Shown here one piece after another: positions 3 through 8,674 of a stretch of DNA of 8,806 nucleotides. Position numbers and translations under genes: made by a program. The DNA comes from an uncultured Devosia sp. (lineage in GTDB: Bacteria; Pseudomonadota; Alphaproteobacteria; Rhizobiales; Devosiaceae), in contig CAMLKN010000086.1 of assembly GCA_946480655.1 (NCBI GenBank), positions 1 through 8,806 on the forward strand, written 5' to 3'. Below the pieces are notes generated by a model, which did no database searches, was not told where the DNA came from, and saw nothing but the letters and a program-made list of their open reading frames with translations. How positions within the stretch are numbered: the first letter of the stretch is position 1; each line of letters starts with the position of its first letter.

Positions 3-1049
3 AATCCGGAGACCGACGAACAGCCGCTGAGCTTTGCGCCCGTGGTGACCAATCGTCCGGCGCCGCAGGAGGTGTCTGGGTTTTCGGTGGCGCCAGCCAT
101 TGCCCTGGATGCGGAAGGGAATTCCCGTCGGCCGGCGATTGACGTGTTCTGGTCTTCGGCCTCGGTGACGGTGGACGTGCGGGCGGTGCGGATCACAATC
201 CGGCTGGCCGCGACAGACGTCATTGTTTGGGAAGGAGAGGCGCCCAGGCCTGAACTGGGCGAGGCGCGCATTACGCAGGCTCTGCTGCCGAATGAGGACT
301 ATGAGGTCCAGATCCAGTATATGCCCTTGTCTGGCCGCGTCACGGTGGAAAGCTCGTGGTTGTCGGTGACGACGCCCGACGTCAAGCTGGGCGCGCTCGA
401 TGTGGTCTATGGTGACCTCAACCTCGATGAACTCGGGGCGCAGGCCGAGGGTTATTTCGACTGGATGGGCATCAGCGTCCGCGAGCTCTACGAGAAGGCC
501 CAAGAGCAGGACGTTCACGGCGCCGACCAGGAACTAGCCAATGCCATGCAGTTCGATGAACTGCGGCGCAGCCTGTCGGTAGTCACTGGTGATCTGCAGG
601 CTTCGTTCGAAGAGACGATCACCGTCGCCATTGTCCCAATGCAGGGACAGTTGGTGGCCATTGCCGACTCGCTGACCGAGCTTTCGGCCGGCGACGGCAC
701 GGATGTGACCACGGCTCGCTTCCGCATGACCGCGATGACCGGGCCGACCGGCTATAGCCGGATCGGTGCGGAGACGCGAGTTGATGTGGCCGACAGTGGC
801 GCTTGGCGCGGCGCTGCCTGGTATCTGGACACCCCGACGAACCCGGCTCTGCCGACGCGGTTCATGGTCCTGGCTGACCAGTTCGTGGTCACTGACGACG
901 TGGATGTACAGCAGCCGCTGGTTTTCGAAGGCGGCGTCCTGAAGCTCCAGGTGGCCAATATCGGCACGGTGACCGCCGGCCTGATGCAAAGCCCTGACGG
1001 CAAGTTCGTCATCGACCTCAACAACAAGGTCATATCGATCTCGACATGA
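3..1049 (+). CDS. Phage tail-tip / host-specificity protein (gpJ-like), C-terminal part
   Basis: This is the C-terminal 348 residues of a tail-tip attachment protein. The reading frame is open from base 3, so the start lies upstream and the GTG at 42 is only an internal valine. The first ~110 residues look like a beta-rich fibronectin-III-type module. A linker of helical character follows (about 120-215). The last ~120 residues, with FRMTAMTGPTGYSRIGAETR and a Gly-rich stretch ending in a DGKFVIDLNNK motif, resemble the DUF1983-type C-terminal domain of lambda J-like central tail fibre proteins. Such proteins sit at the distal end of the siphophage tail and contact the receptor. The stop overlaps the next start as ATGA (1046-1049), so the two are probably translationally coupled. 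The family call is from recognised sequence style; the missing N-terminus could not be checked. Confidence 0.85.
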   Translation, partial: NPETDEQPLSFAPVVTNRPAPQEVSGFSVAPAIALDAEGNSRRPAIDVFWSSASVTVDVRAVRITIRLAATDVIVWEGEAPRPELGEARITQALLPNEDYEVQIQYMPLSGRVTVESSWLSVTTPDVKLGALDVVYGDLNLDELGAQAEGYFDWMGISVRELYEKAQEQDVHGADQELANAMQFDELRRSLSVVTGDLQASFEETITVAIVPMQGQLVAIADSLTELSAGDGTDVTTARFRMTAMTGPTGYSRIGAETRVDVADSGAWRGAAWYLDTPTNPALPTRFMVLADQFVVTDDVDVQQPLVFEGGVLKLQVANIGTVTAGLMQSPDGKFVIDLNNKVISIST

Positions 1050-1831
1050 CAATTCGCCTCTACGCAGACAGCTTCCGGTGCGCCATCTTTGAAGAGGCAC
1101 CTGGCGGCGGGAGCCCGGCCGACATCAATTCCTTGATGAACCGGCCGGCGCTCGACCCGTCCAGTTGGCTCGACAACATCTACTTCCATTCGGAGTTCGA
1201 CTATTACGGGGTGGCCGCCTACACGCTCGGCACCTCACTCACCCATGCCGCGATTGCGGGCATCACCCGCAATGCAGGCGGCGGCACGGGTGAAGTATCA
1301 ACCGTGGTGACACTGGCTGGGCAGAGCGGGTCTGACGACCAGCTCTTGCTCACCCACAATCTGGGCTACGTGCCGGACTTCTATGCCATCATAAACGGCG
1401 TCCTGGCCCCGAACGGCGTGCCAATTCAGCGTCCCGATGCGTTCCGAATGCGCTTCGCGTGCGTGTATGCGACGACGACAGAGATCCGTGTCGCCACCTT
1501 TGGGTTCTCATCGGGCAGCGATCTCAGCAGCATCAGCGCCACCTATGGCGTCATCGTGTTCCGCGACCATGCGGCCATCCCTGGCGAGAAGATGCTGAAG
1601 ATCGCGCCGGGTGACGTGATCTTCGGCCAGGGCAAATTCAACATGCAGCAACCCCATTTGCGCGCCGATGGTGCTGGCGACAGCCCCTTCGCGATCGCGT
1701 TGAGCAAGACCGCCGCGGCGCGGAATGGAGGGCTGCGGCTCTACAAGTCCAGCGGCAGCTACGAGGATTGGGGTTCCTTCAATGGGTCGTTGACCGCGCC
1801 GACATTCATCAGCGTAGCGGTGGGGTTGTAG
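1046..1831 (+). CDS. Phage tail-associated protein of unknown function (261 aa)
   Basis: I do not recognise a named family. The ATG overlaps the stop of the tail-tip gene (ATGA) and no strong ribosome-binding site sits at normal distance, so translation probably depends on the upstream gene. The protein has no signal peptide or membrane segment. Residues about 85-175 form a beta-rich module with THNLGYVPDF (103-112) and YATTTEIRV (141-149). Similar His-Asn-Leu-Gly-Tyr-Val-Pro phrases occur in small tail and fibre-like phage proteins. A Gly/Ser-rich stretch follows at 154-163, and the C-terminus (225-261) is again rich in Gly, Ser and aromatic residues. Its place between tail tip and fibre suggests a virion surface or adaptor protein. 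That role is inferred from position only. Confidence 0.75.
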   Translation: MTIRLYADSFRCAIFEEAPGGGSPADINSLMNRPALDPSSWLDNIYFHSEFDYYGVAAYTLGTSLTHAAIAGITRNAGGGTGEVSTVVTLAGQSGSDDQLLLTHNLGYVPDFYAIINGVLAPNGVPIQRPDAFRMRFACVYATTTEIRVATFGFSSGSDLSSISATYGVIVFRDHAAIPGEKMLKIAPGDVIFGQGKFNMQQPHLRADGAGDSPFAIALSKTAAARNGGLRLYKSSGSYEDWGSFNGSLTAPTFISVAVGL

Positions 1832-2686
1832 ATGGTTGACCAGTTCCTTGCGGAGAACGACCGCATTCAGGTCATCCGAGACAGTGAAATCGCCTTCGAC
1901 ACGGACAGGATATCGGTTGAGCGCTTCCCGGATGCCGATCACATCGTCCTGACCAACTACGACATCTCGTTTCCGAGCTTTGTTCAGTTCGCCGCCTACT
2001 ACCGCAACCAGACCGGCGGCGGTCTGACCACATGCGAGAGGTGGTCGACGCTGATCTGGCAGGAGTGGGGTCCGGATGAATCGACCCACGATGAAGTCTA
2101 TTACCCGGCCAACCCCGGCGCCTCCATTCCGGGGCCAACCACGCGACCCCTCACGCGCACCTTGCTGGGGTCAGTGCCGGCCGAAAGCAACTACCTCGAC
2201 ATCCGGGTCAATCTGAACCGGATCGTGACTCCGCCTGCCTTCCACGGGCTCGAAGTGCCGACTGTGCTGTTCAAGCAAAACCAATGGATCACGCTCCCTG
2301 GTGGCTCGTGCCCTTGTGAAGTGCTTCTGACCTCAGCCAGTCGGCTGTTCAACATCGTTCGGATTGGTAACGACATCTACCTCGATCGCTACCAGAGCGT
2401 GTTCAACACCAATAGCCCGCTGGCTCCAGGTGGATATGCGCAGGCCAACATCTCGGTCAACCAGTCCGGCTGGAACTCTTTCAATCAACGCGGTTCGCCA
2501 TCTGATGGGTCTTCGGTCGCGCCATATGCGAACAACATCCTTTATCACCTGATGGATCAGAAGCCTTACAGCCTCGATGGCAACAAGCGGCCCGGAGGGA
2601 CCAACCCCTGTGGCGGTTCGCACCCCGATCTCACATCGACCTATCGGGGCAGCATTGTCATCGCTCCGTGCCGTCACCGGACCTAA
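1832..2686 (+). CDS. Phage tail-region protein of unknown function (284 aa)
   Basis: I do not recognise this family. The ATG follows the previous stop with no gap (TAG|ATG), behind a GTGGGG purine stretch at about 1820-1825 that may serve as a weak ribosome-binding site. No signal peptide or membrane segment is visible. The N-terminal ~60 residues are acidic and beta-like. The middle contains aromatic-rich text (WSTLIWQEWG, 71-80) and a Pro/Thr-rich run (95-110). Five cysteines (C68, C160, C162, C260, C280) include a CPC pair and one in the last five residues, which is more than its phage neighbours have; disulfides or metal binding are possible but unproven. It is the last gene before a terminator hairpin, so it may close the tail-tip transcription unit. 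A virion-surface or receptor-binding accessory role is inferred from position. Confidence 0.72.
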   Translation: MVDQFLAENDRIQVIRDSEIAFDTDRISVERFPDADHIVLTNYDISFPSFVQFAAYYRNQTGGGLTTCERWSTLIWQEWGPDESTHDEVYYPANPGASIPGPTTRPLTRTLLGSVPAESNYLDIRVNLNRIVTPPAFHGLEVPTVLFKQNQWITLPGGSCPCEVLLTSASRLFNIVRIGNDIYLDRYQSVFNTNSPLAPGGYAQANISVNQSGWNSFNQRGSPSDGSSVAPYANNILYHLMDQKPYSLDGNKRPGGTNPCGGSHPDLTSTYRGSIVIAPCRHRT

Positions 2687-2746: not shown

Positions 2747-2758
2747 GGAGCAACCATG
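2747..2758 (+). promoter_or_regulatory. Ribosome-binding site fixing the fibre start
   Basis: GGAG at 2747-2750 lies five bases before ATG 2756. This favours ATG 2756 over the in-frame TTG at 2741, which would begin within two bases of the terminator T-run and has no ribosome-binding site. Confidence 0.7.
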
Positions 2759-4480
2759 CCCGCAGTCTCCGATTACGTGACCGGTTCAATTTCGCTCACC
2801 AATGGCTCCATAAACTTCACCGGCACCTCCACCGGCTGGCTGCTTGCTGGCTTCAAGGAAGGCGACACCATCATCGACATCACTGGCGCCACCGAGTTCA
2901 TGGGCGTCATCGCGACTATCGATGCTAATGGGGCAGGGACGCTCACCAAGGCGTGGGAAGGTCCGACGCTGGTCGATGTGGCCTATAGGATGCGTTACCA
3001 GCCTGACGGGGCTCGTGTGTCAGCCCAGGCGCGCAATCTGATCGAACTGCTGGGCAATGGGAATGTCCTGGCTCTGGCCGGGCTGTCCGGCTCCGCCAAT
3101 CAAGTGCCAATGTTCACCGGCCCCGGCGCCATGACGCTTGTGCCCAAGACCGATCTGGTGAGCGGCGTTGCCTATGATGTGCAGGTTGATCTGTTGGCCG
3201 ACCGGGACGCTTACGATGGGCAAGCGGAAGGATTCAGCGTCCTCGTGGCGGACGTGGGCGACGGACGGGCAGCTGTCTATGCCAAGGCTTCGGCAGCGTC
3301 CGGCGACTGGACGGACCCGGCATATGTGACTGGACCTGTCGGGCCGGCACCGGTGTTCACAGTGGACACCACCACGACGCTTGCACCAGGCTCCGCTGCA
3401 ACGTTCGTCTTGACGCCCACCGTTGACGGCTACGAGATCGACATCGGCATACCGGCCGGCCGTGCCGATGGCGTTCCGTTTCTGTGGGATACTGGCACCG
3501 CTGATGCTGACCCGGGAAGCGGTGACCTTCGGGCCAACAACGCCTCTTTGGGCTCCGCGACTTTTCTGTATGTATCGAAGACTTCGGCGGCTGGATCAGC
3601 GGTCGCGGCGTATTTGCTATCCTTGGACGATAGCACCAATCCGACAAAGAAGGGCGATCTCATCCTGAAGCGATCCGCTGACGGAGTGATCGCGTCTTTC
3701 ATCGTCGGCACCGTCACGGACGCCACCAACTATGTGACGATCGCTGTTTCGGGCCACTCCGGCGCTACGTCATTCACGGCTGCTGATTTGATCCAGTTCG
3801 AATTTGCCCGAGCTGGCGATAAAGGCGCCGACGGTGCTGGAACCGGCGATGTGGTGGGTCCGGCATCGTCTACCAACAACGCCATCGTCCGGTTCGATGG
3901 CACCACCGGCAAACTTCTGAAGGAACTGGGCAGCGGCGTAGCCAACTCCGATATGGCTTTGATGGCTGAAGCCACGGTCAAGGGGCGGGCTGTTGGTTCT
4001 GGCACCAACGTTCCGTCCGATCTGACAGGCGCTCAGGTTGCCGCCATCGTGATGGCAGGCGGCCAGTTGGCCTTCCCTGCAACACAAATCCCGTCGGCTA
4101 ATGCCAACACCCTCGATGACTACGAAGAGGGCACCTACACCCCGACCTATACCAACATCACCATCGGCAACGGCACAGTCAGCTCGAAGTACACCAAAGT
4201 TGGTGACCTCATTCATCTGGAATGGTCACTTACCTGGGGCAGCACGACTTCAGCCACGGCAAGCCCAACCACTATCGGCCTGCCGTTTACTGCCGGCGCG
4301 GACGGTGCCGGTTCGGCATCTGCGTTGGACCTCGGGAGCGCGTTTTTCCACCCGATTGTTTTTCGCTCAACCACGTCAATGGTTCCGAGAAGCCCTAGCG
4401 CCGGTAGCTATTCCGGCACGGTCCCCTTCACCTGGACGACCGGCGACGTGCTGACCATCACCACAACCTACAAGGTCTGA
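2756..4480 (+). CDS. Modular phage tail fibre protein (574 aa)
   Basis: This is a probable trimeric tail fibre that binds the host surface. Residues 1-130 form a virion-proximal module seen widely in alphaproteobacterial prophages: a YVTGSISLTNG beta start, FKEGDTIIDI (33-42), AYRMRYQPDGA (76-86) and a helix with NLIELLGNGN (94-103). A central beta-rich region (about 140-350) carries Gly-Pro turns (GPVGPAP, 193-199). A short collagen-like turn, GDKGADGAGTGDVVGP (354-369), leads into NNAIVRFDGTTGKL (374-387), a phrase common in phage fibres. Residues 448-574, beginning ANTLDDYEEGTYTPT, look like the distal Ser/Thr/Gly-rich tip domain, the part that normally varies with host range. No intramolecular chaperone or glycanase motif is visible. 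The next gene begins three bases after the stop, so the two are probably an expression pair. Confidence 0.85.
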   Translation: MPAVSDYVTGSISLTNGSINFTGTSTGWLLAGFKEGDTIIDITGATEFMGVIATIDANGAGTLTKAWEGPTLVDVAYRMRYQPDGARVSAQARNLIELLGNGNVLALAGLSGSANQVPMFTGPGAMTLVPKTDLVSGVAYDVQVDLLADRDAYDGQAEGFSVLVADVGDGRAAVYAKASAASGDWTDPAYVTGPVGPAPVFTVDTTTTLAPGSAATFVLTPTVDGYEIDIGIPAGRADGVPFLWDTGTADADPGSGDLRANNASLGSATFLYVSKTSAAGSAVAAYLLSLDDSTNPTKKGDLILKRSADGVIASFIVGTVTDATNYVTIAVSGHSGATSFTAADLIQFEFARAGDKGADGAGTGDVVGPASSTNNAIVRFDGTTGKLLKELGSGVANSDMALMAEATVKGRAVGSGTNVPSDLTGAQVAAIVMAGGQLAFPATQIPSANANTLDDYEEGTYTPTYTNITIGNGTVSSKYTKVGDLIHLEWSLTWGSTTSATASPTTIGLPFTAGADGAGSASALDLGSAFFHPIVFRSTTSMVPRSPSAGSYSGTVPFTWTTGDVLTITTTYKV

Positions 4481-4483
4481 CAC

Positions 4484-5098
4484 ATGACGGAAATTCTGCA
4501 GCGGTCCGAACTGGACATGACGGGCTACAATGTCGGTGAGGACGTGGCCATGCAGGGGCAGATTGCCCTGCGCTGGCGCAAGCTCACCTATGCGAACGGA
4601 ACGCTGATCGCGACAGAGTATCATCGCGCAATGATCGAGCCTCTGATGGATATCGCAGGCTTCCTAGACGGCGTCGAAGCCGACCTGGCGGCGCAGGGCT
4701 GGCCCTGGGCCGAAAATGTAGTAGCGCTTGACCGCCAGATCATCGCGACCCTTGCCAGCATGATCTGGACCGAGAACGTCGTGGCTGCATTCGACGCACG
4801 CCGGCGGGCCGAGGAGCAACAGACAAATGATCTCGCTGCCATGTCGGCCCAAAGGCTTCCGCGATGGAAGTTCTGGGCGGCCCTCGGCATGGCCGGCCTT
4901 ACGGATGCAGTCCGAGCAGCCTTTTCCGCTATCCCCGATCCCCAACTGCGGGCCATAGCCGTCGCGAAGCTGGAAAATACGGACTACTACGACCGGTCTG
5001 ACGCATTGTTCGCTGACGAAGCTCTTCTGGGGCAGATCGGTATCGATAGCGACGGCGTTGACGCGCTCTGGGCACAGGCGTTGGCGCTGCCCGATTGA
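4484..5098 (+). CDS. Fibre-associated phage protein, possible assembly factor (204 aa)
   Basis: The gene follows the fibre after three bases. AAGG at 4472-4475, inside the fibre gene's end, can serve as its ribosome-binding site. The protein is soluble and largely helical in appearance. Its C-terminal part (about 126-204) has the pattern WKFWAALGMAGL, then an AIPDP turn (149-153), then a LWAQAL end. Small proteins of this pattern (a Trp/Phe-rich helix, a 'IPDP' turn, a short acidic helix) commonly follow fibre genes in phages, and some are called fibre assembly proteins. The N-terminal half (residues 45-110) has a long helix with several Trp residues and an RRRAEEQQ coiled-coil-like stretch. 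A chaperone or accessory role for the fibre is inferred from position; I cannot name the family with certainty. Confidence 0.7.
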   Translation: MTEILQRSELDMTGYNVGEDVAMQGQIALRWRKLTYANGTLIATEYHRAMIEPLMDIAGFLDGVEADLAAQGWPWAENVVALDRQIIATLASMIWTENVVAAFDARRRAEEQQTNDLAAMSAQRLPRWKFWAALGMAGLTDAVRAAFSAIPDPQLRAIAVAKLENTDYYDRSDALFADEALLGQIGIDSDGVDALWAQALALPD

Positions 5099-5123: not shown

Positions 5124-6110
5124 CTAATTGCAGAGTGTGGTTTCTGAGCACAGGGCATCGACAAGTCGCGCCGTTCGCGCGTCTGCCCCAACGCCTGTAG
5201 GATGGTAGAGGGTATCGAACATCAAGCTCATCGGCAGAAGACTGTCTTCGTAGTCGCCGACCCACGCGACCCCAGAAGAGATCAATCGGTCCCGCGCCGC
5301 GAACAGCCTGCATATGTATTGTGGCTCACGAACCTCGGGACGATTCATTTGGTTCGGCCACGTCATGATTAGCAAAATTCCTTCGCGCTCCGCCCAGTTG
5401 GCAAGATCCTCGATGATTTCCAACGACCTGTGCTTGGCATGTTGGGGCTCGCACACAGGCAAGTCTGGTGCAGTGGTCGTTTCGTTAGGTTGGACTCCCG
5501 AGAGCGAGATGAGGCTGTCAGTCTGGCTCTGAGTAGGTCCGCGCCAATCACCTCTCTGGTCGATGTCCCCCTTCTTGTGGGAGACGACCAGCTCCTCGGA
5601 CGGAATCTCAGTCCAAGCTGCGCGAAATATTCGTTGTAGAGGTAAGAGGCGAAGGAAGTGCAAGGCCTCGAGCGGGCGCATGTCCTGCATTAGCTCAAGA
5701 CCCATTGAGTAGGCGACGGTGGCGGAGACGAAATTCTCGACCTCATCGGTGGCGAGCACATGCGGTTCGAGCGGGAGAAGCACAGCATCTCCTGTCTTTG
5801 CCACTTCGCGTACCTCACGCGCCATGAAGCGGATACCCAAGCTGCCTGTAACGCCCATGTTGACGGTTGGTCGCCCCGTTGCCTGCTCCAACATGGAGGC
5901 GCGCACGCCAAACATTGCTCCGGACCCGGCCATCACGATGAGCTTGGGTTGCTCGACACTCAACGCGTAATTGCGCTTCATCAGGGTGATTTCCCGGCTG
6001 CCATAAAATGGGTCGGGGAAAGGCTTGCCCGCGCCCATCACGATCGAAAGTGCCATGAACAGCAGGCCGGCCACGACAACTGCTCCGGCGGTGATGAAAA
6101 AGGTGCGCAT
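5124..6110 (-). CDS. Membrane-anchored SGNH-hydrolase-like O-acyltransferase partner (328 aa)
   Basis: This is probably the periplasmic partner of the MBOAT protein encoded just upstream, receiving an acyl group and passing it to a glycan (compare AlgJ/AlgX, DltD and PatB, which pair with AlgI, DltB and PatA). Residues 4-25 are one hydrophobic segment (FFITAGAVVVAGLLFMALSI) and should anchor the protein with the rest in the periplasm. The likely SGNH signatures are a GSG nucleophile loop (IVMAGSGAMFGV, Ser63), NMG (84-86), a GDAVLLPLE strand (107-115), and a C-terminal D-TLY-H motif (Asp299, His303) followed by GVGADART. The usual block-I GDS/GSN is GSG here and the D/H pair is spaced by three residues, so the assignment is by overall pattern. 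The start at 6110 is chosen because TGATG (6108-6112) joins it to the MBOAT stop; longer in-frame starts would lie inside the MBOAT gene. Confidence 0.72.
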   Translation of the reverse strand: MRTFFITAGAVVVAGLLFMALSIVMGAGKPFPDPFYGSREITLMKRNYALSVEQPKLIVMAGSGAMFGVRASMLEQATGRPTVNMGVTGSLGIRFMAREVREVAKTGDAVLLPLEPHVLATDEVENFVSATVAYSMGLELMQDMRPLEALHFLRLLPLQRIFRAAWTEIPSEELVVSHKKGDIDQRGDWRGPTQSQTDSLISLSGVQPNETTTAPDLPVCEPQHAKHRSLEIIEDLANWAEREGILLIMTWPNQMNRPEVREPQYICRLFAARDRLISSGVAWVGDYEDSLLPMSLMFDTLYHPTGVGADARTARLVDALCSETTLCN

Positions 6111-7567
6111 CAGAAATTGAAATACAGGAAGGGCGCCACACTGGCCACCGACCAAAGAAGCGTGAGCGAGAAGAGCAGGGCGAGCCCAACTGCCGCACCC
6201 CAAGCTGCATTCGGGCGCCACTGAAGCCAAGACCGAGTACGGGCCAGCCCCGAGTATTCAATAATGCCCGGATCAAACTTTCGCATTATCTGGGAGGTGT
6301 TTGGACAGAGGAACACGACGGCTGCCAATGAGCCGAGGTGCACGGCGATGTGCGTTACGTCGGCCGGCAGCGCGACCGCTGACAGCCCACTGATCCCTGC
6401 CATACCAGCGTAGACAATGCCAGCAGCAGCGAGATCCTCTGCGCGAAATAGTACCCAGGTGAGAACCACGGCCAAGAATGTCAGCCCAACCCCGATGGGC
6501 CGAACTAGTCTGTAAGCGCTGAGGCGCGACGCGGCGAAACGTTGGTGCACAATGAGCATCGCCCCGTGCAGCGCACCCCAGGCAACAAAGGTCCAGCCTG
6601 CACCGTGCCACAGCCCGCCAATGAGCATAGTCAGGAAGAGGTTTATCGGACGTCGCCATGGACGGACGCGATTTCCTCCGAAACCAATGTAGACGTAGTC
6701 CCTTAGGAAGCGGGATAGCGTCATATGCCAGCGGCGCCAGAACGCAGTGATGCTGCTGCTCTTATAGGGGGAGAAGAAGTTGACCGGCAGTCTAATACTG
6801 AACATGGCCGCCAGGCCTATGGCCATGTCGCTGTAGCCAGAGAAGTCGAAGTAGAGCTGGAAAGTGTAAGCAAGCGTTCCGAGCCAGCCGTCCAGGAAGC
6901 CGACTGCGCTCCCAGATGCGGCTCCATCGAAAACGGCATTGGCGTATGGCGCAACCGGGTCCGCAAGCACCACTTTCTTGGCGAGGCCGATGGCAAAGAT
7001 TGTAAGACCCGCCGCGAAAAACGCATTCTCCCGAAGCCTCGACCAAGCTCTGCTGAACTGCGGTAGTAGGTCTCCGTGGTGGATAATGGGTCCTGCAATG
7101 AGATGCGGAAAAAACGTGACGAACAGTGCGTACCGCATCAGGTTGGGTTCAAACTTTGCACCTCGCGTGACGTCGACCAGGTAGGTGATCTGCACAAAGG
7201 TGTAGAAAGAGATGCCGAGAGGCAGGTGCGACGTTGGCAACTCGGTATGGATGCCAATTACCGACGCCCCGAACGCCCAGTACTTAAAGAAGGCGATGCC
7301 GGCGAGATTGGCCGCAATGGCGACGATTAGGAGCGGGCGTTGATGCGCTCCTGGGCGAGCCAGGAACAATCCGGCAATGAAGTTTGCGGCGATCGAAATG
7401 GCCAGTAGACCAAGATCAAACCAGCCAGCGAAAGAATAAAATACGAGCGACGCCGCCGTTAGAAACCAAAGCGCCGCCTGACGACCACCCCACCGCAACA
7501 ACACGGCATAGCCGACGAGGCACGCGGGCAGGAACCCAAAGATGAACTCGTACGAGCTGAAGACCAT
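6110..7567 (-). CDS. MBOAT-family O-acyltransferase, AlgI/PatA-like (485 aa)
   Basis: This is a polytopic inner-membrane acyltransferase that takes an acyl, usually acetyl, group from a cytoplasmic donor and moves it across the membrane for addition to a glycan. Many hydrophobic helices run the full length, and the size fits AlgI-type MBOATs. The N-terminus MVFSSYEFIFGFLP is the classic start of this family. Signature blocks appear in order: PLGISFYTFVQITYLVDV (116-133), FFPHLIAGPI (152-161), FDFSGYSDMAIGLA (240-253), FWRRWHMTLSRFLRDY (276-291, His281) and GGLWHGAGWTF (317-327, His321, the invariant catalytic histidine). No key residue is missing, so it should be active. It is the first gene of a two-gene unit opposite to the phage genes. 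The acceptor cannot be read from the sequence: alginate-like polymers, O-antigen, exopolysaccharide and peptidoglycan are all known for relatives. Confidence 0.93.
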   Translation of the reverse strand: MVFSSYEFIFGFLPACLVGYAVLLRWGGRQAALWFLTAASLVFYSFAGWFDLGLLAISIAANFIAGLFLARPGAHQRPLLIVAIAANLAGIAFFKYWAFGASVIGIHTELPTSHLPLGISFYTFVQITYLVDVTRGAKFEPNLMRYALFVTFFPHLIAGPIIHHGDLLPQFSRAWSRLRENAFFAAGLTIFAIGLAKKVVLADPVAPYANAVFDGAASGSAVGFLDGWLGTLAYTFQLYFDFSGYSDMAIGLAAMFSIRLPVNFFSPYKSSSITAFWRRWHMTLSRFLRDYVYIGFGGNRVRPWRRPINLFLTMLIGGLWHGAGWTFVAWGALHGAMLIVHQRFAASRLSAYRLVRPIGVGLTFLAVVLTWVLFRAEDLAAAGIVYAGMAGISGLSAVALPADVTHIAVHLGSLAAVVFLCPNTSQIMRKFDPGIIEYSGLARTRSWLQWRPNAAWGAAVGLALLFSLTLLWSVASVAPFLYFNF

Positions 7568-7572
7568 GTGCT

Positions 7573-7602
7573 CTTAGAGGGCGCCTCTCGGGAAACTGTC
7601 AA
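7573..7602 (-). promoter_or_regulatory. Candidate sigma-70-type promoter of the acyltransferase cassette
   Basis: On the minus strand a perfect TTGACA (7602-7597) is followed after 18 bases by TCTAAG (7578-7573), which matches the -10 consensus at four of six positions. The -10 ends only five bases before ATG 7567, so the transcript would start at or very near the start codon and be nearly leaderless. Two dyads lie in the region. AGAGG/CCTCT (7576-7588) overlaps the -10, and GCGCC/GGCGC (7605-7619) lies just upstream of the -35. They could be operators, but this is unproven. Confidence 0.45.
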
Positions 7603-7651
7603 GAGCGCCAGACCGGCGCCCCGAAGCGCTGAACAGAAACTTGCCTTCCAC

Positions 7652-7682
7652 AGGCGGTCCATCGGGGCCGCCTCTTTCTTTT
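7652..7682 (+). terminator. Strong intrinsic terminator upstream of the endolysin
   Basis: AGGCGGTCC (7652-7660) pairs with GGGCCGCCT (7665-7673), eight Watson-Crick pairs and one G-U, around an ATCG loop. A CTTTCTTTT tract (7674-7682) follows. It acts on + strand transcription, meaning rightward transcripts from the tail block. Those would have to cross the whole inverted cassette before reaching it, so it may be the original tail-block terminator displaced by the cassette. Rightward transcription of the lysis genes must begin after it or read through it. Confidence 0.75.
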
Positions 7683-7692
7683 GTCACATCAA

Positions 7693-7706
7693 TGGAGGCC
7701 GATATG
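7693..7706 (+). promoter_or_regulatory. Ribosome-binding site fixing the endolysin start
   Basis: TGGAGG (7693-7698) is five bases from ATG 7704. The in-frame ATG at 7692 overlaps this site, and a TTG at 7641 would place the terminator inside the gene. Both are therefore disfavoured. Confidence 0.8.
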
Positions 7707-8372
7707 GCTCGATCCGTGAACGCGGAGACCATCGAACACGTCAAGCGATGGGAGGGTTTTCGTGCCCAGGCTTATCCCGACCCCGGCTCGCGCGATGGGA
7801 AGCCCGTAACCATCGGTTATGGCCAGACCCGGCGCAACGGCCGTCCCATTCAGTTGGGGGAGACCATCACCGAAGCCGAGGCGGCGCAATGGCTGCTGCA
7901 GGAGCTGGCGCGCGTGGCGGGCGTGGTTGAGCAGGCCGTCAAGGTGCCGCTCAATGACAACCAGTTCGGCGCCCTGGTGAGCTTCACATACAACGTGGGA
8001 GACAATGCCTTCAAGGGCTCCACGCTGCTCAAGAAGCTCAACGCCGGCGACTACCAGGCGGTCCCTGCCCAGATGGCCCGCTGGAACAAGAACGATGGCA
8101 AGGTCATGGAAGGTCTGGTCAACCGGCGTGCCTCAGAGGCTGGGCTTTGGGCGAAGGGCGCCTTCGTCTCGTCGGCGCCCGTCGATGCCAAACCCGGCAA
8201 CCCGATCAAGGAACTGGTGACACCCGAGAACATGGCGGCCGGCGGCGGGCTTCTGGGTGGCGCTGCGGCGGTCGCGTCTGGCAATGGCCCGGTCCAGTAC
8301 GCCATTGCCGCCCTGATGGTCATAGCGGCCATCACGATCGCTTTCCTCGTGATCAGGAAGGCAACGCGATGA
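7704..8372 (+). CDS. GH24 (T4-lysozyme-type) endolysin with C-terminal hydrophobic tail (222 aa)
   Basis: This muramidase cleaves the MurNAc-GlcNAc bond of peptidoglycan to lyse the host. The GH24 triad is intact: Glu17 (KRWEGF), Asp26 (AYPDPG) and Thr36 (VTIGYG), with the same nine-residue Glu-Asp spacing as in T4 lysozyme. A loop of about four extra residues lies before the Thr. TIGYGQT replaces the more usual TIGYGHT. NDNQFGALVSFTYNVG (91-106) and the LVNRRASEAGLW helix (about 140-151) are typical of the fold. There is no N-terminal signal-anchor. Instead, residues 177-193 are Gly/Ala-rich and 199-217 form a clear transmembrane helix ending in RKATR. The enzyme is therefore likely tethered at its C-terminus, or fused to a holin-like hairpin. 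Its stop overlaps the next start as ATGA (8369-8372), suggesting a coupled lysis operon. Confidence 0.9.
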   Translation: MARSVNAETIEHVKRWEGFRAQAYPDPGSRDGKPVTIGYGQTRRNGRPIQLGETITEAEAAQWLLQELARVAGVVEQAVKVPLNDNQFGALVSFTYNVGDNAFKGSTLLKKLNAGDYQAVPAQMARWNKNDGKVMEGLVNRRASEAGLWAKGAFVSSAPVDAKPGNPIKELVTPENMAAGGGLLGGAAAVASGNGPVQYAIAALMVIAAITIAFLVIRKATR

Positions 8373-8674
8373 TCGACTTCATCCTCTTTCTTCTCGGCAT
8401 GGTGCCGTGGCCGGCGTGGGCCGTGCTCGCCCTGTGCCTCATATGTGCCGTCCAGTTCGTCTGGGGCTGGCGGGCGACCATTGCCGCCATCATCTCCCTT
8501 CTGCCGATCCTGGGCTATCTCTGGGGCCGGAAGCGGCAAGCGGAGATCGATCAAGCCCGGCGCGACCGGGAGGCGCTTCAGGACGCCAGATATCGGCGTG
8601 AGGTTGACCAAGGCGTTTCCGAGATGGGCGCCCAGGACGTGTCCGAAGAACTCTCGAGGTGGAACCGTGATTAA
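8369..8674 (+). CDS. Small membrane protein of the lysis module, i-spanin (Rz-like) or holin candidate (101 aa)
   Basis: ATG 8369 overlaps the endolysin stop; upstream starts in this frame lie inside the endolysin gene and are rejected. Residues 4-34 are hydrophobic (a Trp/Pro break at 13-17, then AVLALCLICAVQFVW) and 36-53 form a second segment (ATIAAIISLLPILGYLW). Residues 54-101 are strongly charged (RKRQAEIDQARRDRE) and suit a coiled coil, ending in SEELSRWNRD. A charged coiled-coil region ending in a Trp-containing tail, plus a lipoprotein gene starting inside its end, is the classic Rz/Rz1 arrangement. Rz proteins usually have one transmembrane helix, so two would place the coiled coil in the cytoplasm and fit a holin better. 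I prefer the i-spanin call because of the neighbour. Confidence 0.7.
   Translation: MIDFILFLLGMVPWPAWAVLALCLICAVQFVWGWRATIAAIISLLPILGYLWGRKRQAEIDQARRDREALQDARYRREVDQGVSEMGAQDVSEELSRWNRD

Follow-up and report, generated by a model that had tools for sequence, protein, structure and literature searches.

The O-acetylation of host glycans by phages is well known for single proteins of the acyltransferase-3 type, such as Oac. The subject of the present work is a pair of inverted genes in a stretch of 8,806 nucleotides of DNA from an uncultured Devosia sp. (assembly GCA_946480655.1, contig CAMLKN010000086.1; this whole stretch is referred to as the window), which looks like a two-component cassette joining a membrane-bound O-acyltransferase (MBOAT) to a partner with a predicted SGNH fold. 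What is new here, relative to seroconversion by acyltransferase-3 proteins, is the MBOAT chemistry and the unnamed family to which the partner belongs.

The genes iap, oac and wzy-beta of phage D3 are described as seroconversion genes (PMC11436027, PMC9658991), and they occupy the same slot as the window cassette, between a tail gene (orf27) and the endolysin gene (orf31). Phage JBD44 (NC_030929) carries an MBOAT gene (gp41) and a gene for an SGNH-type partner (gp40), both inverted and placed between the tail fibre gene gp39 and the endolysin gene gp42, as in the window, and the JBD44-like record NC_074663 has the same layout, with the endolysin position annotated as ‘hypothetical’. The receptor of JBD44 is reported to be the O-antigen, and a change in its fibre gp39 is reported to alter the plaque halo, with lysogens of that variant resisting superinfection (PMC9112912); the terms ‘acetyl’, ‘moron’ and ‘gp41’ are absent from that paper, so its results are not tied to the pair. 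Among chromosomal systems PatA/PatB is the closest in chemistry, and a C-terminal acyl-shuttle hexapeptide, FXYXXF, is described as demonstrated for PatA (PMC12148441).

The window pair is read here, with moderate confidence, as a phage-borne two-gene O-acylation system that acts on a host surface glycan and alters a receptor in the lysogen. At His321 the MBOAT would take up an acyl group, which is probably the acetyl of acetyl-CoA; the group would pass, on the periplasmic side, to Tyr482 in the protein's own FLYFNF tail, which would hand it to Ser63 of the membrane-anchored partner; and the partner would esterify an exported glycan of the host envelope at one of its hydroxyls, the most likely acceptor being the O-antigen or some other polysaccharide of the surface. 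The prophage would express the cassette independently of the late operon, and the changed surface would be the receptor of the phage itself or of its competitors, leading to lysogenic seroconversion or superinfection exclusion. The relay is proposed by homology with PatA/PatB, the glycan substrate and lysogenic expression from context only, and the receptor effect from the position of the cassette and the analogy with D3.

The acyltransferase and its partner

Both open reading frames were found on the strand opposite to the surrounding phage genes and are joined by TGATG, the MBOAT stop and the partner start overlapping by one base at 6110, as a first-pass annotation of this DNA had described. 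The MBOAT protein scores 98.1 bits against PF03062 (gathering score 27, E=8.4e-28), which is the sole family above its cut-off; an acyltransferase-3 domain of the Oac type was not found in it. The catalytic residue named in that annotation, His321, lies in GLWHG and is invariant across 32 aligned MBOATs. The C-terminus is FLYFNF (residues 480-485), includes Tyr482 and fits the FXYXXF shuttle hexapeptide. DltB-type D-alanylation was considered and rejected, because the score against the DltB equivalog TIGR04091 is 150.4 bits, under the curated cut-off of 375. At E<=1e-3 the MBOAT model has no match in a viral structure library. P0005 and P0015, which are nearest to the window proteins, are 83% identical, and for each of them the longest contig is given as 146,287 bases; P0016 and P0017 are MBOATs at middle distance.

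The earlier description of the partner as SGNH-like receives no help from sequence families, while the predicted structure supports it. The partner has no match in Pfam (0 families at E<=0.1, so that the AlgX/AlgJ model PF16822 is also unmatched) or NCBIfam, and neither cassette protein matches any PHROG family, as is likewise the case for the cassette proteins of JBD44 and of the viral contig L001. The AlphaFold2 model of the partner, with a predicted local distance difference test (pLDDT) value of 77, matches SGNH structures in the PDB (Foldseek) and has an alpha/beta fold in which a serine heads the first core helix and a histidine precedes the last helix, as in the SGNH superfamily. In terms of the SGNH blocks, Ser63 (block I) is invariant in 12 partner sequences and, from its place, would be the nucleophile; the conserved columns also include Asn84 and Gly86, which are block II-like, and Asp299-Thr-x-x-His303, which is block V-like. 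A predicted N-terminal helix at residues 2-26 is likely to be a membrane anchor. An SGNH-like partner is thus supported at the level of the model, and the PF03062 match, the FLYFNF tail and the predicted partner fold together make the locus look like the two-component MBOAT/SGNH pair that had been proposed. Elsewhere in the family, at the loci L067-L071, L073 and L074 of a sampled order, the partner is mostly a longer frame of about 500 amino acids that adjoins an MBOAT ending in FIYFxF.

Phage cargo in a variable slot

The window covers part of the tail and lysis genes of a tailed phage; the flanking phage genes are all on the plus strand and the minus-strand pair sits between the fibre-side genes and those for the endolysin and Rz/Rz1-like spanins (Table 1). 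The cassette is phage cargo: the alternative of a host gene was rejected because phage genes flank it directly and because the slot holds another inverted gene in L035, which among the phage relatives is nearest on the lysis side (its endolysin is 92% identical, and its DNA 86% over 7649-8532 of the window). Relatives of three fibre-region genes of the window lie upstream in L035, which lacks the MBOAT pair and has, in the gap between fibre and endolysin, a small plus-strand open reading frame and a small inverted lipoprotein-like gene. The latter and its relative in L037 could represent another superinfection-exclusion gene. The first-pass annotation had called the pair a moron and had suggested a comparison of related phages with and without it; the cassette-free L035 and the seroconversion slot of D3 both speak for that proposal. 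A further relative, L036, has an integrase-like gene about 2.5 kb past Rz, and we infer that the phage group is probably temperate. The first gene product of the window has its nearest named relatives mostly among Rhizobium, Sinorhizobium and Mesorhizobium phage proteins (about 29-36% identity), which suggests an alphaproteobacterial host.

The DNA similarity to L035 starts at 7649, which places the terminator-like hairpin listed in Table 1 at the right-hand edge of the cassette. A second terminator-like hairpin with a T-rich tail lies at 2720-2734, directly before the fibre gene, and similarity to relatives begins near both hairpins, at 2729 (L032) and 7649 (L035), as if they were module boundaries. 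An insertion scar was set aside, the one 8-base direct repeat (5073 and 7649) being at about chance level, and so was a role as a defence-system component, since PADLOC gives no match for the cassette. In L038, another relative, the post-fibre gene (9222-9812, plus strand) has a below-cut-off resemblance to a GDSL esterase (PF13472, E=0.0022), and its product is possibly a virion-associated deacylase, with the opposite activity.

Table 1. Coordinates of features in the window and, where a contig is named, in two relatives
Feature	Coordinates	Strand	Remarks
Tail tip/fibre gene fragment	3-1049	+	phrog_5616, 1e-48
Gene without above-cut-off family match	1046-1831	+	Open reading frame
Gene without above-cut-off family match	1832-2686	+	Open reading frame
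Tail fibre gene	2756-4480	+	phrog_24607, 7.9e-21
Left-hand neighbour, last gene before cassette	4484-5098	+	phrog_14311 (PHROG of unknown function), 3.7e-9
Predicted SGNH-fold partner, 328 amino acids	5124-6110	-	ATG at 6110, stop at 5124
MBOAT O-acyltransferase, 485 amino acids	6110-7567	-	ATG start; PF03062
TTGACA, possible -35 of cassette promoter	7597-7602	-	Sole copy in window
Terminator-like hairpin, T-rich tail	7652-7673	+	Between cassette head and endolysin
Endolysin, right-hand neighbour	7692-8372	+	PF00959, 6.8e-46; phrog_7
Rz-like	8369-8674	+	Spanin
Rz1-like	from 8667	+	Spanin
Small inverted lipoprotein-like gene	L035 9491-9859	-	In slot of the window's MBOAT pair; no Pfam match
Relative of the L035 inverted gene	L037 9480-9851	-	37% identity over 115 residues, E=1.9e-19; no Pfam match, weak PHROG matches

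Related pairs in phages and on chromosomes

MBOAT genes were found in 16 distinct viral contigs, which amount to 13 lineages (JBD44-like, L001, L020, L021, L022, L023, L027, L028, L029, L094, L097, L098 and L099) when four JBD44-like contigs are taken as one lineage; L031, a repeat of L001, and L087-L093, L095 and L096, repeats of earlier contigs, are left out of the count. Beside the pair, the first gene to be recognised encodes a tail fibre or spike in nine of these lineages (JBD44-like, L001, L022, L023, L027, L028, L029, L098 and L099), and an endolysin or lysozyme lies on the other side of the pair in four (JBD44-like, L029, L001 and, with a gene intervening, L027). The pair is inverted with respect to the tail genes in JBD44-like phages, L022, L023, L027, L028, L029 and L099, and co-oriented with them in L001 and L098; the tail spike that adjoins the pair in L028 is presumably P22-like, judging from its N-terminus. 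Two tandem MBOAT-SGNH pairs, one with a window-type and one with an ALGX-type partner, are present at 7299-12747 of L027. Outside the lineage count are 37 unannotated ‘Bacteriophage sp.’ records (MT83xxxx) that match the MBOAT at <60% identity, human-faecal in the matches listed (40 of 50) and most of them short, together with three Enterococcus, Listeria and Staphylococcus phage records. Pseudomonas phage Y5 (L004, OQ572407, unverified) was also excluded, its MBOAT-matched stretch reading as an alginate biosynthesis operon that seems to be host DNA.

The history of the cassette was approached with a tree of 36 chosen MBOAT rows, which samples only a few non-phage members of the 7,991 proteins found and in which the bootstrap is not settled. 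The phage MBOATs of JBD44, L022, L023, L028, L029 and L027a form one clade (support 100/99), and the window MBOAT groups with P0015, P0016 and P0017 (100/99), outside that clade. Within the clade L027a has a window-type partner, yet the rest have ALGX-type partners; this, together with the separate grouping of the window MBOAT, is suggestive of at least two captures, with SGNH partners probably exchanged between cassettes. It may be, although we rate this slightly below an even chance, that receptor-modifying cassettes of phages make up a modular class of their own, in which an MBOAT is combined with interchangeable SGNH partners, the phage clade spans lambda-J-like fibres and P22-like tailspikes, the window MBOAT was captured separately into this fibre/endolysin slot, and the partner, which would set the glycan specificity, is swapped between the ALGX and the unnamed type, in parallel to the exchange of gtrC in Gtr systems.

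In genomes, a partner-profile search placed an MBOAT gene directly upstream of the partner in 15/15 loci. An MBOAT also adjoins the partner in eight of nine further distinct places from one order (in L072, the one exception, no MBOAT lies within about 1.4 kb) and in all three others of a phylum-wide sample (L084-L086), from which L083 was left out as a repeat of L006. The partner family is rare, occurring in at least 8 of the 397 genomes from one order and at least 4 of the 398 from one phylum (E<=1e-6, with up to five candidates scored in each genome), the latter count taking in the centre genome G001. Searches for the partner in phage records and, with a single query, in genome contigs returned nothing; the search in viral contigs returned nothing either, though L001, L027, L097 and L098 there hold relatives, which marks that search as insensitive.

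Glycosyltransferase or glycan-export genes lie near the pair in each of the three chromosomal loci scanned. The Halomonas pair (L008) is within a cluster of Wzt, an ABC-2 transporter, glycosyltransferases, ManC and a sugar transferase. Glycosyltransferases are near the pair in L006 and L016 as well, and L016 also has an ABC-2 transporter about 9 kb off. These surroundings point to exported glycans as the substrate. The first-pass annotation had held that the two genes would be host genes if they sat beside polysaccharide genes in close relatives; the chromosomal partners are remote from the window partner (22-37% identity in best segments), and the glycan genes beside them support a glycan substrate rather than refute the assignment as cargo.

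Alternative readings and known systems

A pair of this chemistry could instead O-acetylate peptidoglycan in the manner of PatA/PatB, and so block the muramidases that rival phages bring, or keep the phage's own endolysin from lysing the cell too early. This is unlikely in view of the polysaccharide genes near all three scanned chromosomal homologues (L006, L008, L016), of the fibre or spike as next recognised gene in 9/13 lineages compared with an endolysin on the other side in 4/13, and of the O-antigen genes that fill the slot in D3. Rhizobium, Sinorhizobium and Mesorhizobium hosts make acylated exopolysaccharides, and it is mostly to phage proteins from these genera that the first gene product is related, which would suit a cassette that acylates an alginate- or cellulose-like exopolysaccharide and benefits the lysogen in biofilms, under stress or in association with plants, with no bearing on a receptor. 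The MBOATs AlgI and WssH are indeed reported to acetylate exopolysaccharides (PMC9558356); the recurrence of the pair beside receptor-binding genes in unrelated phages, and the parallel with D3, nevertheless make such a host-fitness role improbable. Finally, the pair might be passenger DNA, a bacterial pair caught at a tolerant site between late operons and having no selected function. The base composition of the cassette leans slightly this way (guanine-plus-cytosine content 0.58 against 0.59-0.65 in the phage genes, and 0.68 against 0.69-0.80 at third codon positions), as does the lack of the cassette in so near a relative as L035, but neither frame is broken and the active-site residues are retained, both genes persist in a relative at 83% identity, the phage-borne MBOATs form a supported clade across several phages, and the same slot is used in unrelated phages, so that this explanation is very unlikely.

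A number of observations weigh against receptor modification by an O-acylating pair, the reading that we favour. The partner model is middling, both in pLDDT and in its seven best Foldseek matches (TM-score by query length <=0.40, root-mean-square deviation 6.6-12.1), and the partner is without a clear block III asparagine and without the textbook SGNH DxxH spacing, the motif being D-T-x-x-H, with the aspartate at -4 and replaced by asparagine in L027. The TTGACA reported at the head of the cassette is indeed present, but it occurs once in the window where 3.28 copies are expected by chance, and a sigma-70 scan called no promoter at 7597-7602; the hexamer was therefore set aside as evidence in itself, and a promoter there, with TCTAAG as a possible -10 (18 nt after TTGACA, by eye), is plausible but unproven. 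The window contains no integrase, so that temperate nature is judged from L036. The JBD44 partner gp40 is of the ALGX type (PF16822, 49.3 bits), unlike the window partner family, and repressor immunity alone may explain why JBD44 lysogens resist superinfection. Four lineages have no adjacent fibre: L020; L021, which is cut at the contig end; L094, where an inverted pair lies beside a baseplate-hub gene; and L097, with no recognised phage gene. An opposite-strand open reading frame without a family match separates fibre and pair in L098, the partner match in L099 is weak (27% over 159 residues), and the neighbours of the Dyadobacter pair (L010), inspected by eye, are not obvious glycan genes. 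No experiment was found on the window pair or on any phage MBOAT-SGNH pair.

In the literature on phages and seroconversion, with subscription papers mostly outside the scope, no phage MBOAT-SGNH pair was recognised as a receptor modifier among the matches listed. If such pairs do the job of Oac, a whole class of seroconversion genes would be easily missed, because the proteins of the window, JBD44 and L001 match no PHROG and the MBOAT model is unmatched in the viral structure library; similar pairs beside the host-binding tail genes of unrelated phages suggest a little-noticed way for a phage to alter its own docking site. Since acyl transport falls to the MBOAT, whereas the choice of acceptor should fall to the partner, swapped partners would provide natural material on acceptor specificity. 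JBD44 lends itself to a direct test of the idea, being a model phage that bears the cassette and has the O-antigen as its known receptor.

The use of such a pair next to receptor-binding fibres had been thought unusual, which overstates the case: JBD44-like Pseudomonas phages share the layout, and the JBD44 gene already has a GenBank annotation as an MBOAT protein, so that MBOATs had been noticed in phages before. The JBD44 and window MBOATs are 42% identical and fall in separate, well-supported tree groups. D3 has in common with the window the opposite strand of iap and wzy-beta and the surface-glycan chemistry; it differs in that Oac, encoded on the late strand, belongs to the acyltransferase-3 type and not to the MBOATs, with no separate SGNH partner gene annotated, and in that D3 replaces the O-antigen polymerase too and carries an HNH gene in its slot. 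An inverted O-antigen-ligase-like gene is described beside the lysis genes of VarioGold, and its authors speculate that it is active in lysogeny (PMC9658991). In DltB/DltD, which works with DltX and DltC, the shuttle peptide is on DltX, whereas the window has it fused to the MBOAT, and neither DltA nor DltC was seen in the window. AlgI with AlgJ/AlgX likewise combines an MBOAT with a periplasmic SGNH-type partner and modifies an exported polysaccharide, alginate, but the window partner is unmatched by the ALGX model and the AlgI-like protein of the Y5 record is far from the window MBOAT in the tree. PatA/PatB shares with the window the two-component MBOAT-SGNH organisation, the catalytic histidine and the C-terminal FXYXXF shuttle (PMC12148441), and differs from it in being chromosomal, in having peptidoglycan as its substrate, and in a partner, PatB, as which the window partner is not identifiable by sequence.

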